From contig JAJFGG010000165.1 in NCBI GenBank assembly GCA_021776235.1, positions 1 through 62,284 on the forward strand: a stretch of DNA of 62,284 bases, in the 5' to 3' direction. The notes beneath the pieces were generated by a model that was not told the DNA's origin, made no database searches, and worked only from the letters and a program-made list of their open reading frames with translations. The number at the start of each line of letters is the position of its first letter. Position 1 is the stretch's first letter. Made by a program: the position numbers and the translations under genes. The stretch is from Alphaproteobacteria bacterium (lineage in GTDB: Bacteria; Pseudomonadota; Alphaproteobacteria; GCA-2731375). Below, piece by piece: positions 3,289 to 51,714 of this stretch.

Positions 3289-4090
3289 AACGATCCAACC
3301 TGTCCCCATGATCTGTCAATCGCCCGGAAATTCATCAATGGTCTTGCCCGGCTTTGCAAGCGGAATATGCCATATTTTCCATCGTTGGGACCAGATCGGG
3401 ATATCAAGATCGCCAGGGCGCAGCCACTGCCAGGTGTGAAGCAGCTGCGACCTGGCGCGCCGTCAGGGTTCATGGTGCCCCATCAACCCATATTGATCTC
3501 ACTATCCCGGTTACCAGCCAGGATCTGCCGGCGATAGTCGAAGACCTGCTCCATACTGGTCAGATGGTTTCCCAGCTTGCTGTGATTGATCGGCGTCAGG
3601 TTGGACAGTTTAAGTAGCCGGCGCAAGATTTCGCCATCTACCACGTCGGCGTCGATCACGTTGAGGCAACCCGGGTCCTGCTCGAATGCGCGGGCCGACG
3701 CCAGACCGCCGTAACTGGCCCAGGCCAGCAACATACGGTTGGTGCCATCATGGGCAACCAGCAACAGGTTGCGCCAACCCGGTTGCAACAGCAGCTCTTC
3801 CAGGCCGCCGACGACCCGGTCATAGAACGCCCGATACAGATCGCCACCGGCGAAACGGGCGCCAGGCTGGTCGGCTGTCTCCATGCAGTAGACGAATTCC
3901 GCATCAAGTTGTTCCTGGGATTTGCCGGCCGCGGGGCCGGAGTGGATTTCCTTCAGAACCGGAATTTCTTCCAACACAATACTTCGGCCTGCCAGCACGC
4001 CCTGAGCGGTCTGCATGGTGCGCGGCAGGCCAGTGCTTCATACCAACGAGCGCCGAAAGAGGCCCCTTGAGACGCCGGACCGAAGATTTA

Positions 4091-4150
4091 GGGTAGGAGC
4101 GTGCGTCGCGGCGATACGGGATATCGTGTGACGTGCGCGACGCCATCCGA
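4091..4150 (+). repeat. hairpin module, copy 1 (left half of element 1)
   Basis: A 60-nt unit beginning gggtaggag, with a central small hairpin gcgatacgggatatcg, ending cgacgccatccga. The flanking arms (gcgtgcgtcgc and gtgacgtgcgc) can pair with a few wobbles or mismatches. The same order of motifs recurs in three other copies in the window with different arm sequences. Confidence 0.7.
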
Positions 4151-4191
4151 AAGCTTCCATAAGGCGCCGTTTTGGTCGTCTGCAGCCCCCC

Positions 4192-4251
4192 TCGGATGGC
4201 GTCGTGAAGTCTTGACGATACCCCGTATCGCCTGCAACTTCACTCCTACCC
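4192..4251 (-). repeat. hairpin module, copy 2 (right half of element 1)
   Basis: Read on the minus strand it begins gggtaggag, has arm gtgaagt, central hairpin gcgatacggggtatcgtc, complementary arm acttcac, and ends gacgccatccgag. The arm pairing gtgaagt/acttcac is perfect although its sequence differs from copy 1. Confidence 0.72.
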
Positions 4252-4508
4252 GAGGGGGGCCGCAGACGATCTCAATGGGTCTCTATCGGCGCTCGTTGGT
4301 ATAAGGCGCGGTCAAAGGGTATGTCGGCCAGCAGTTCGCCCATGCGGGCGGCCTGCGCCTTGCCCCGGTCGGTCAAATCGACGAATTTCGGGTGGACCGG
4401 CTGGCCTTGCTCGTCGAAATAGCGCACCTCGCCGTGTCGCATCAGATAGATCCGGCGCCGGCCGGCGGTGCCCTCAAGAGCGTCACTCATGTCAATCGTC
4501 TCCCAGGC

Positions 4509-11254: not shown

Positions 11255-11644
11255 ATGATGACCCAGTCCCGGGACGAGGCGATGGCGCTTTTGGGGCGTT
11301 TCGGCAAAGCCTTCAATCGCAGTGATGTGGCTGAAATACTGGCCTGCGTCACGGATGATTTTGTCTGGATTCTCGCGGCCGGGCCCGAAGCCCCCGATGG
11401 CCAGATCTGCCGTGGCGCCGATCAGGTTCGTCAGGCCCTGGCGGCGCGGGCGGAGTTAGTCCGCGACGTCCGCTTTTCTGAAACGGCGGTGCATTTTGCT
11501 GACGACCGTGTCATTGGAACCTTTCGCGCCACGGGTAGATATGTGGCAGATGGCAGTCCCTATGACGTTCGCGGCGTGGACATCTATACTTTGCGCGACG
11601 GTCTGATCGCCAGCAAGGACAGCTATTGGAAGCAAATCGCCTAG
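11255..11644 (+). CDS. SnoaL/NTF2-like protein
   Basis: A 129-residue cone-shaped-fold protein of the NTF2/SnoaL superfamily. It begins with an amphipathic helix (ALLGRFGKAFNRSD), then DDFVW and VRGVDIYTLRDGLIASKDSYWKQ, the typical end strand of this fold. Members are ketosteroid-isomerase-like enzymes or small-ligand binders; no specific function is visible. A gggag ribosome binding site precedes paired ATGs. Its TAG stop (11642-11644) lies partly inside the terminal repeat of the following element. Confidence 0.7.
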   Translation: MMTQSRDEAMALLGRFGKAFNRSDVAEILACVTDDFVWILAAGPEAPDGQICRGADQVRQALAARAELVRDVRFSETAVHFADDRVIGTFRATGRYVADGSPYDVRGVDIYTLRDGLIASKDSYWKQIA

Positions 11645-11694
11645 TGTCATGGATCAGCAGTATGTCGCATTTAGGACGGCCCTACAGGTCCCTC

Positions 11695-11755
11695 GGCTAG
11701 GCGCGCGGTCCGCCGTGATGTCGGCCCGTCACAAGGGCGGCGCAACGACGTCCGA
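11695..11755 (+). repeat. hairpin module, copy 3 (left half of element 2)
   Basis: The most diverged of the four: ggctaggcg, arm gcgcggtccgcc, central gtgatgtcggcccgtcac, arm agggcggcgc, end cgacgtccgag. The central stem is gtga/tcac rather than gat/atc, but order and length (61 nt) match the other copies. Confidence 0.55.
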
Positions 11756-11796
11756 GGGACCTGTAGGGCCGCCGAAACGGTCGCTTGTCCTGGCCT

Positions 11797-11856
11797 CCGG
11801 ATGGCGTCGACGCCCCTTGACGATGTCCCGCATCGCCGGCGCGGCGCCTCCTACCC
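11797..11856 (-). repeat. hairpin module, copy 4 (right half of element 2)
   Basis: Read on the minus strand: gggtaggag, arm gcgccgcgcc, central gcgatgcgggacatcgtc, arm ggggcgtc, end gacgccatccgg. Central pairing gatg/catc is kept although the base pairs differ from copies 1 and 2 (gata/tatc, gatac/gtatc). Confidence 0.7.
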
Positions 11857-11900
11857 GGAGGCCAGGACAAGCGATCCTAAATATGACGTACTGCTGATCC

Positions 11901-12863
11901 ATGACACTGGACACTCTGCTACAGCGATTACTGGCCGGGGAAACCATTGCACTGGCCAAATCGATCACTGCGGTGGAAAACGATACGGATCAGGCGGCGG
12001 AACTGCTGGCGGGTATTCAGCCGCATTTGGGCCGTGCCCTGGTGGCCGGCTTTACAGGACCGCCGGGAGTTGGGAAATCCACACTGGTCAATGCATTGGT
12101 CGTCGAATTGCGCCGCCGTCAACGTAGCGTCGGGGTGGTTGCGGTTGATCCGTCAAGTCCGTTGACCGGTGGCGCCATTCTGGGTGACCGGATCCGGATG
12201 AGCGAACATACCCGCGATCCCGGCGTCTTTGTCCGCTCTCTGGCGGCCCGGGGACATTTGGGTGGGCTATCGCCAACCGCGGCACGGGTCATAGATGTGA
12301 TGGATGCGGCGGGCCGGGACGTGGTCGTCGTGGAGACCGTCGGTGCCGGCCAGTCAGAGGTGGAGATCGCCGAGATCGCGGATGTTCGTATCGTCGTCTG
12401 CGCCCCCGGCCTGGGTGACGATGTCCAGGCGATCAAGGCCGGCATCCTGGAAATTGCCGATATCCTGGTGGTCAACAAGGCGGATTTGCCCTTGGCCGAA
12501 CGTACCGTCAGCCAGTTGCAAGGTATGCTGTCGCTGCGGGCGGCGGCTCTTAAGCCATTGGCGGCCGATGTGCCGGTGCTTTCCATCACGGCCACCAGCG
12601 GCCGTGGTATAGCCGCGCTGGCGGATGCGGTTGAAGCGCGCGCAGGCCTGGCCCTTACAGAAGAGCAACGCGCCGCGCGGGCGCTGCAACGGGTGCGGCG
12701 GTTACTGGCCGACGCCACGGCCCAGCGCGTCCGCCAGTTGATCCGCGAGGCCGGCGGTGACAATGTTGATAATCTATGCGCCCAGATACAAAGGGGCGAC
12801 CTGGGTATCGATGCCGCAGCCGCCCGGCTGTTGCAGAAATTGCAGAGCGGCGACAGAACTTGA
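11901..12863 (+). CDS. meaB: methylmalonyl-CoA mutase-associated GTPase MeaB (ArgK family)
   Basis: MeaB is a G3E GTPase that loads and protects B12-dependent acyl-CoA mutases. The 320-residue protein has Walker A GPPGVGKST, DPSSPLTGGAILGDR, an ETVGAGQSE switch, and NKADL for guanine specificity, in family order. The ATG at 11901 gives a normal-length N-terminus before SITAVEN, yet it sits inside the right terminal repeat of element 2 and has no Shine-Dalgarno. Expression may thus depend on the element. No mutase gene is in the window; the partner must be encoded elsewhere. The glyoxalase-like gene follows after 16 bases, as methylmalonyl-CoA epimerase-like VOC proteins may do. Confidence 0.88.
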   Translation: MTLDTLLQRLLAGETIALAKSITAVENDTDQAAELLAGIQPHLGRALVAGFTGPPGVGKSTLVNALVVELRRRQRSVGVVAVDPSSPLTGGAILGDRIRMSEHTRDPGVFVRSLAARGHLGGLSPTAARVIDVMDAAGRDVVVVETVGAGQSEVEIAEIADVRIVVCAPGLGDDVQAIKAGILEIADILVVNKADLPLAERTVSQLQGMLSLRAAALKPLAADVPVLSITATSGRGIAALADAVEARAGLALTEEQRAARALQRVRRLLADATAQRVRQLIREAGGDNVDNLCAQIQRGDLGIDAAAARLLQKLQSGDRT

Positions 12864-50655: not shown

Positions 50656-51714
50656 ATGATGCCGATTGCCACGCAGAAATTCACTTATCCGCAAGCCTGG
50701 ACGGCGGCGGACTTCGACAGTTTGGAAGCCATCTCGTATCACCTGAGCGCGGCGCATGTAGCGGCGCTGGAACACTGTCTTGCGCAGGTCAAACGCGCCG
50801 GGCTGACACTGGCCGACATCAAAGCGGAGCATTTCCGCCATCAGGACCTGGACGGCGATTTGGCCGCGCTGCTGGAAGAGCTGATGTTCGGGCGCGGACT
50901 GGTGGTGCTGCGCGGCTTGCCGGCGGCGCGCTATAGCGCCGAGGACATGGCGTTGATGTACTGGGGCATCGGCACCCAGTTCGGCGTTGCCCTGTCGCAA
51001 AGCGCCACGGGTGATGTGCTGGGCCACGTGGTCGATCGTACCAAGCCAGGTGAAGAAGAGGAGGCGCGCGGCTACACTTCGTCGCGGGAGTTGCGCCTGC
51101 ACACGGACCTGGCCCAGGTGGCGGGGCTGTTCTGCTATCGCCCGGCGGCATCGGGGGGCGTCTCGGTGGTTGCCTCCGCCCTCGCCATCCACAATCAAAT
51201 TGCCGCCGAGCATCCAGAATATCTGCCTATTCTCTACAAGGGCTTCCCCTACCATCGCCGCGGTGAAGGGGCACCGGATGCAGACCCCATCACGCCCCAC
51301 AACGTTCCGGTATTCTCCAATCTCAACGGCAACACGTCGGTGTTTTATGTGCGCGAGGTCCTGCAGAACGCGATTGCAGAGCGTGGTGAAACCCTGACCG
51401 CGCAGGAGCTTGCGGCGCTGGATTATTTCGACGCCTGCGCCCGGCAGAACAGTTTCCGTTTCCGCCTGCAGCAGGGGGATGCACTGTTCATGAACAACCG
51501 CACCGCACTGCACGCCCGGACCAAGTTCGTGAACGGCGAGGGGGCCGAGGGCCGGCGTCATCTCATGCGTCTGTGGCTGGACGTGCCGGACATGCGGCCG
51601 GACGTGAAGGAAATTCAAGTTTACGACAACGAAGCCGGTCGTAGCGGGATTGACCGCCAAGCGAAAGGCCGGCGGGCGGGTGCGGAGTATAGGACCATGG
51701 AAAAATTGAAGTAA
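50656..51714 (+). CDS. TauD/TfdA-family Fe(II)/2-oxoglutarate dioxygenase
   Basis: A 352-residue dioxygenase. The iron ligands are LHTD (His and Asp) and the distal His in NNRTALHART, with the 2-oxoglutarate-binding Arg in GRRHLMRLWLD. A stretch EELMFGRGLVVLRGLP near residue 80 is typical of the family. Substrate unknown; TauD-type enzymes act on sulfonates, haloaromatics or amino acids. Its codon use looks GC-richer and more C/G-ending than the flanking genes, a possible transfer. It converges with the antiporter operon. Confidence 0.84.
   Translation: MMPIATQKFTYPQAWTAADFDSLEAISYHLSAAHVAALEHCLAQVKRAGLTLADIKAEHFRHQDLDGDLAALLEELMFGRGLVVLRGLPAARYSAEDMALMYWGIGTQFGVALSQSATGDVLGHVVDRTKPGEEEEARGYTSSRELRLHTDLAQVAGLFCYRPAASGGVSVVASALAIHNQIAAEHPEYLPILYKGFPYHRRGEGAPDADPITPHNVPVFSNLNGNTSVFYVREVLQNAIAERGETLTAQELAALDYFDACARQNSFRFRLQQGDALFMNNRTALHARTKFVNGEGAEGRRHLMRLWLDVPDMRPDVKEIQVYDNEAGRSGIDRQAKGRRAGAEYRTMEKLK

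Follow-up and report, generated by a model that had tools for sequence, protein, structure and literature searches.

The window, that is, the whole 62,284-nt stretch of DNA analysed here, holds two minus-strand open reading frames (ORFs) that match the profile His_Phos_1 (PF00300) in collinear order, over profile positions 1-48 and then 57-182, with a short inverted-repeat element between them (Table 1). A preliminary description had read this arrangement as a histidine phosphatase gene split by a non-autonomous inverted-repeat element, and the data support this reading. The gene is uninterrupted in seven orthologs, from which full ORFs were extracted, and many other copies of the element were found, so that the two results that would have refuted an insertion (the same sequence within intact orthologous proteins, or no second copy anywhere) were both absent. 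The 3' part of the gene was matched in 9 of the 11 genomes of the genus, the source genome included. The 5' part is terminated by a stop within the element.

Table 1. Coordinates of the interrupted gene and of the two elements in the window.
Feature	Position	Strand	Remarks
3' part of split histidine phosphatase gene	3483..4037	-	still open; 177 aa from ATG at 4016
Left target-site copy TCA	4038..4040	.	TNA type; middle base unlike right copy
MITE proper (TACC..GGTA)	4041..4301	.	261 bp; end stem and two inverted hairpin modules; absent from orthologs
Left terminal inverted repeat, type TACCAACGAGCG	4041..4067	+	27 nt; 24/27 identical to right arm; 3 mismatches to end pattern
Hairpin module 1, sense orientation	4071..4168	+	model R1, 84.2 bits
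Hairpin module 2, inverted	4174..4271	-	model R1, 98.6 bits
Right terminal inverted repeat	4275..4301	-	27 nt; 0 mismatches to end pattern
Right target-site copy TAA	4302..4304	.	
5' part of split histidine phosphatase gene (RHG half)	4305..4490	-	ORF reads on into the element, stop at 4272
Second element, same core, other ends	11643..11908	.	ends AGTGTCATGGATCAGCAGTA, 20 bp perfect
Hairpin module 1 of second element	11675..11773	+	60.8 bits
Hairpin module 2 of second element	11779..11876	-	83.7 bits

Alignment with orthologs located the empty site, which corresponds to one target codon. It reads GCGCC-TTG-AGCAC in one ortholog (L043) and GCGCC-CTT-TGCAC in another (L044); the filled site in the window, in gene direction, reads GCGCC-TTA-(element)-TGA-AGCAC. 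The two window triplets are unequal (TCA and TAA on the plus strand, TTA and TGA in gene direction), and the alignment indicates that a single target codon is duplicated at insertion, one of its copies having changed later. The target had been taken to be TA, with excision unable to restore the reading frame; neither point held, as the flanks are a 3-bp TNA duplication and the net insertion is 264 nt. Since this is a multiple of three, loss of the element together with one target copy would keep the frame. Along the branch leading to the source genome, the 3' part (176 codons) shows 4:6:17 changes at codon positions 1:2:3, compared with 5:4:14 along the sister branch (G006). For the 5' part (62 codons) the numbers, 4:1:3 versus 1:3:2 in the sister branch, are too low to judge. 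Given that the 3' part shows no visible decay in its codon-position changes, the insertion into the phosphatase gene would appear to be recent, which we regard as probable.

The ends of the element are perfect over 16 bp (ATACCAACGAGCGCCG and its complement, with one flanking base on each side included), in agreement with the preliminary description, and lie within arms of 38 nt (87%). The total of 263 bp given there is correct for the limits chosen; the element proper is 261 bp long, the outermost base on either side being part of the 3-bp TNA target duplication. As had also been noted, no transposase is encoded, the ORF list containing no frame of transposase length in the interior. The element meets the criteria for a MITE in being short and transposase-less with terminal inverted repeats (24/27 arm identity); in having dispersed copies, target duplications and empty sites (98 ends, 22 of 32 delimited copies and seven orthologs, respectively); and in having ends in common with an autonomous transposon, namely an IS630 end on contig C61 of G006, in a copy cut by the contig end, the TNA target being likewise common to MITE and IS630 elements.

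A search for other copies of the end, which had been proposed as a check, found the 27-nt pattern (up to 3 mismatches) 98 times in the 6.36 Mb of the source genome versus 0 times for the reversed control, and the whole element gave 52 matches there at E<=1e-3, palindromic copies being matched on both strands. Among 40 genomes searched, the element was present in ten: nine of the ten that belong to the genus, and one from a different genus in the family. The same search did not find it in three further family members or in 26 other genomes of the class. The exact end pattern was also seen in 20 stretches of the named genome collection, some of them from Aurantimonas, where related elements of full length occur. 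Phage sequences gave no match to the window copy, and plasmids a single one of 26 bp (E 0.2). Copies in the source genome are mostly 261 bp long, with further size classes of 285/286, 258, 193, 158-160, 124, 90 and 54 bp.

Identical flanks, all of them TNA (TTA, TAA or TCA), border 22 of the 32 delimited copies (24 from the source genome and 8 from relatives). Identical flanks are lacking in the other ten, among them the window copy; L031 has no left flank, as it lies at a contig start. Flank triplets differing only in the middle base (TTA/TAA, TCA/TAA) recur at L001, L009, L201 and L175/L202, autonomous IS630 elements included. Thirty-three one-ended copies of the source genome (L078-L117) were examined, and 23 of these have TNA outside the end. 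A short second end with a matching triplet was found near only 1 of the 33 (control fraction 0.010), so that most one-ended copies are probably truncated relics. A few seem to keep a very short second arm, for example at L081 4050.

The preliminary description had not recognised the ends. A looser end pattern, applied to six genomes or records, retrieved multicopy elements with ends of the form TACCAA..GATCA..ACCYAT. There are 13 such copies in G092, with TAA or TTA as the flank on the visible side, and three in G395, flanked by TGA, TCA and TAA. Plasmid relatives of these elements are annotated as IS630 transposons. In an Aureimonas copy (L172) the transposase lies in two frames, of which the C-terminal frame scores 109 bits against NF033545 (cut-off 100) and the N-terminal frame alone 85, below the cut-off; with a DDE_3 match as well, this copy meets the criterion for an IS630-type DDE transposase. 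Four of five plasmid copies could be delimited, at 1159-1161 bp, with flanks TTA/TTA, TAA/TAA, TGA/TGA and TGA/TGA; the fifth has no recognisable second end. ISMno21 (1166 bp) is flanked by TAA/TAA. For G012, a member of the same bacterial family, 16 loci were examined, and at each of the 15 delimited IS630 copies the two 3-bp flanks are the same, with TNA in 13 cases. Three complete IS630 copies occur in relatives from the same genus as the source: one (L203) has identical TAA/TAA flanks, and the others (L201 and L175/L202) have flanks that differ in the middle base.

Judged from these sequence comparisons, the ends are those of a TNA-duplicating, ISMno21-like group of IS630. The window element would owe its ends and its TNA target to this group, and probably also the transposase that moved it. 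It differs in being autonomous, with a length of 1159-1170 bp, in having less similar ends, and in that no double-hairpin core was seen in it. The target duplication of IS630 is given as TA in the available text of one published account (PMC7325037). This canonical 2-bp duplication of IS630-mobilised elements is not met here, the MITE copies and the matching IS630 elements both showing 3-bp TNA; a literature search for an IS630 with such a duplication found no description, save possibly in one Shigella genome paper. The present data document a group within IS630 whose target duplication is TNA, 3 bp long. A transposase of this group is present in 6 of 15 genomes of the family. Protein and family searches found none in the source genome, and no autonomous partner was found around the unpaired ends there; a search for TACC ends at the only DDE_3 match in that genome, an IS630, found none.

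One IS630 copy of a relative bears on how such ends pass between elements. The truncated copy on contig C61 of G006 (L184 1476-1826) has the end TACCAACCCGCGCCGATAGGGACCCAT, with 0 mismatches to the end pattern of the MITE. A sister IS630 copy is 97% identical to it over the next 263 bp, yet has another end (17/27 alike). The simplest reading of this pair would be that ends have been exchanged between transposon and MITE, in a direction that is unknown. The arms of individual copies also change in concert. In 31 copies, the two 27-nt arms are 94.6% alike, versus 82.5% after reassignment of arms between copies (86.9% in the highest of 2000 rounds), and positions 6-9, which vary between copies, mostly change together. 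This could mean that the ends of each subfamily are matched to a transposase of its own, or else that one arm has served as template for the other.

The window contains a second element with the same core. It lies between ORFs 11255-11644 and 11901-12863, its ends overlapping the stop of the one and the start of the other, and these ends (AGTGTCATGGATCAGCAGTA) are unlike TACCA. A scan of the window with a covariance model of the hairpin module (R1; 98 positions, built from 27 modules) recovered four modules, two per element, together with an antisense echo of 11779-11876. Calibration of R1 was short and its E-values are rough. The four modules have in common GGNTAGGNG, the core of the apical hairpin and boxes resembling CGACGCCATCCG; the stems are different, with 49-61 of 98 positions identical. 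Nowhere is the combination of one core with different ends plainer than in these two elements of the window. A weak R1 match elsewhere in the window, at 51123-51206 on the minus strand (18.2 bits, E 0.014), is perhaps a relic.

These observations bear on whether the window element is an ordinary MITE, in other words a decayed internal-deletion derivative of a single IS630 with a passive interior that is palindromic by descent only. Ends and target duplication of IS630 type are what such a derivative would show, and the series of sizes from 54 to 286 bp resembles a set of deletion products. However, the interior has no visible likeness to the IS630 interior found beside the same ends (compared by eye, without alignment), and it occurs elsewhere with quite different ends. 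We give this explanation little credence.

The interior consists of two inverted copies of a hairpin of ~98 nt with conserved unpaired boxes. RNAalifold analysis of a MAFFT alignment of 20 copies (A1) yielded an end stem and two inverted local hairpins, with 102 pairs, 58 of which showed double changes. In nine copies from four lineages (the source family, Aurantimonas, an Agrobacterium plasmid and G092), 55 of 91 pairs showed double changes. The outer stems pair inside their own hairpins with Watson-Crick fractions of 0.86 and 0.88, compared with 0.60 and 0.57 when dealt among copies. When 47 modules were fitted to the model (A4), 93.5% of cells were paired versus 60.6% after shuffling, all 28 pairs showed double changes, and covariation reached 0.822 versus 0.206 for shuffled and 0.10-0.16 for slid sequences; this alignment leans towards the modelled structure.

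The window copy alone folds well below its shuffles (z -9.5 as DNA, -12 as RNA). Its minimum-energy RNA fold is a long cross-half hairpin and not two local hairpins, which counts against the local-hairpin reading. The conserved boxes are identical in both halves and thus complementary across them (0.97). A single long cross-half hairpin was nevertheless rejected for the outer stems, since their pairing across halves was no better than chance, the highest value over all offsets being 0.36. No Rfam family matched any of 18 loci at the gathering score, and near the window element only miRNA models appeared, far under their cut-offs. Another conceivable role is protein-coding, by in-frame insertion inside translated genes as in Rickettsia palindromic elements. 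It was suggested by frame 0 (the phase of a TNA codon), which is free of stops on both strands in many A1/A2 copies, distant lineages included, and by the insertion of 264 nt; many copy lengths are likewise multiples of three. On the other hand, the seven through-frames inspected look spurious by eye, many other copies do contain stops in frame 0, and the window copy also has a stop, so that such a role appears doubtful.

If only the double strand matters, G-U and A-C mismatches in a stem are expected to be equal in number. Module 1 of A1 has 24 G-U and 17 A-C; module 2 has 9 and 26, that is, 26:9 once turned to sense. Sense G-U also exceeded A-C in alignment A3 (61:29) and in a model-free re-alignment of the 47 modules (94:42). 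Counted by locus, G-U prevailed in 16 of 26 loci and A-C in 4, with 6 ties (p 0.012), and counted by pair in 14 versus 2, with 4 ties (p 0.004). The end stem showed no strand preference (G-U 9, A-C 12), and neither did A1 when ends and both modules were pooled (44 G-U, 59 A-C), as expected for modules that stand in opposite orientation. These counts are a hint that RNA is the constrained form of the hairpin; the test rests on related sequences, and there are no expression data.

The same counts are relevant to a reading in which the covariation stems from repair of DNA palindromes, with template switching perfecting quasi-palindromes and no selection on a folded molecule. The concerted change of the two arms of each copy and the missing strand preference of the end stem and of A1 as a whole agree with such repair. 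The excess of sense G-U over A-C in both modules does not, nor does the conservation of the unpaired boxes throughout the class. We consider this reading unlikely as an account of the covariation, although correction of this kind could still act on the ends.

Alternatively, the module could be a protein-binding DNA hairpin or palindrome, such as a methylase or nucleoid-protein site of the kind discussed for the CIR repeats of Caulobacter, that has spread as a regulatory repeat. The two-arm architecture recalls the CIR repeats of Caulobacter and Brucella, which are likewise alphaproteobacterial with two inverted-repeat arms and are described, in the text available for PMC2229807, as being about 110 bp long with a conserved GANTC and no terminal inverted repeat. 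The window family differs in its length of ~261 bp, in its terminal repeats and in the absence of a conserved GANTC, which only 1 of 27 distinct full-length copies holds, so that the criterion for CIR repeats is not met. As the stems are, in addition, strand-asymmetric, a role as a DNA site of this sort seems rather improbable.

In a sample of 385 genomes from the class, R1 detected the module in 47, covering 37 of 276 genera and 31 families (our own count, with ten candidates scored per genome). The end pattern (up to 1 mismatch) occurred in only 5 of the 385; this contrast is rough, as pattern and model are unequal in sensitivity. We examined the 26 best loci, which are the 30 returned minus four of the source genus; L232, the G092 copy, had also been used in building the model. 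Module pairs standing head-to-head were found in 21 of the 26, 19 of these pairs having a gap of 3-9 nt, and the best flanking repeats were at least 22/25 alike in 17 of these 21 loci (there is no null for this choice of repeats).

A sample of 398 genomes from the phylum contained 13 with matches, 11 of them in the class, whose total in the sample is not given. Among the weaker loci of this sample, 6 of 21 had both modules; six single-module loci were checked, and two (L239, L241) had end repeats 24/25 alike at the expected distance. The two matching genomes outside the class were G624, with three matches, and G718, with one. None of these four loci had a paired module, and the two examined for flanking repeats (L243, L248) had no clear ones (16/25).

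Convergence, in which hairpin cores of different lineages are not homologous, has in its favour the ease with which long hairpins arise, modules that may be only half identical (as among the four of the window) and the weaker loci, in which a second module was often not found. Against it stand the unpaired boxes, the apical stem and the length near 98, all held in common, the inverted pairs with their narrow range of gaps, the model E-values of down to 1e-22 in other families, and the concentration of matching genomes of the phylum sample in the class. We regard convergence as very unlikely.

The ends of the 26 loci fall into several types. TACCA ends are present at L211, L212, L215, L218 and L232. 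Ends of the CTAGCCCGCATTTCTCA type, with small variations, are found at L225, L229, L235 and L237, and annotated IS1380 transposons of Stutzerimonas and Bradyrhizobium are bordered by ends of this type on either side; the L225 end gave short matches in six records, and the three examined were two IS1380 transposons and an unannotated record with a single end (L268). A third type, CTAGGAGCCTGTCYGAG with small variations (L220, L223, L228), stands at both sides of elements of 1472-1473 bp annotated as IS1182 (IS4 in an older Xanthobacter record), one of which is ISMno8. The L220 end matched eight records, and all four examined contained transposons of 1472-1473 bp. The CTAGTGTGGTGGAAC ends of L219 were found near one end of another IS630. 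The ends of L213, L214, L216, L222, L224, L226 and L233 remain unassigned, and none were clear in L221. For the L222 end, two records matched, neither of them within a transposon gene, and the whole L228 core, which has IS1182-type ends, gave just short partial matches, in 5 records, when compared with plasmids.

The single BLAST E-values behind the IS1380 and IS1182 matches are weak (0.5 to 6), and these assignments draw their weight from annotated transposons that are bordered by such ends on either side. Judged by similarity, the ends with which the core occurs resemble those of three transposase families or more; IS1380 and IS1182 transposons have not been shown in the core-bearing genomes. 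A common core, differing ends and covariation are all observed directly. A literature search limited to titles and the beginnings of abstracts found no paper describing this double-hairpin core.

Many copies, empty sites, TNA duplications and ends in common with IS630-family transposons of relatives are likewise matters of observation. We think it probable that the window element is a MITE moved by a TNA-group IS630 and that its core is a unit of its own, persisting by exchanging ends. An ISMno21-like transposase, acting in trans, would have moved the element into a TNA codon of the phosphatase gene, parting the catalytic RHG half from the remainder. Switching of ends is inferred: the core would persist by swapping its ends for those of whichever transposon is active in the host, be it the IS630 TNA group, perhaps another IS630, IS1182 or IS1380. 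Constraint at the RNA level is an inference too, as is any function. With the two modules inverted relative to each other, a transcript through the element contains one hairpin in sense whichever strand is read. As a cis RNA, this hairpin might fold in read-through transcripts, where it would be processed or bound, and so cut the cost of an intergenic insertion. Such cis-acting RNA processing is a weak guess; the function is unknown, and there are no expression data.

The wider form of this idea we put forward only tentatively, as possible and somewhat short of an even chance: a mobile core found throughout the class, in which the structured RNA hairpin, present as an inverted pair, is the selected unit and the ends are disposable, exchanged among unrelated transposase systems (IS630 of the TNA group, IS630 of a CTAG type, IS1182 and IS1380), so that the core outlasts any single transposon. 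It would be the DNA-transposon counterpart of SINEs that swap LINE tails. SINE families have a common central domain with exchangeable LINE-derived tails, and the likeness lies in a conserved centre with swappable recognition ends from different autonomous elements; SINEs, however, are eukaryotic retroelements, whereas these are bacterial DNA elements with transposon ends. MITEs are usually held to be remnants defined by their ends, and a conserved core with changing ends is the reverse of this. With the core in 31 families while the ends change, a non-autonomous element can apparently switch transposases, which bears on how small elements outlive their transposons and on whether they carry selected RNA.

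Two bacterial repeats come closest to parts of this picture, as far as the accessible portions of the sources describe them. RUP of Streptococcus pneumoniae (107 bp) is thought to be moved by IS630-Spn1 (PMC2229807) and is similar in being a small stem-loop repeat in many copies, with ends resembling IS630 and movement in trans. It differs in lying at TA targets and being linked to one transposon, whereas the window family has TNA targets, a length of 261 bp and a two-hairpin core with the ends of several families. MITEPye1 of Paracoccus yeei, to which an origin from defective ISs is ascribed (PMC11578231), is likewise an alphaproteobacterial MITE; its ends are IS1182-like, it forms stem-loops, and it may be a member of the same core family, the sequences not having been compared.

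A further observation concerns the source genome itself. The stretch with a different IS630 on its contig C137 (L206) begins CTAGTACTC, which resembles the core ends TAGTACTC of G240 (L214).
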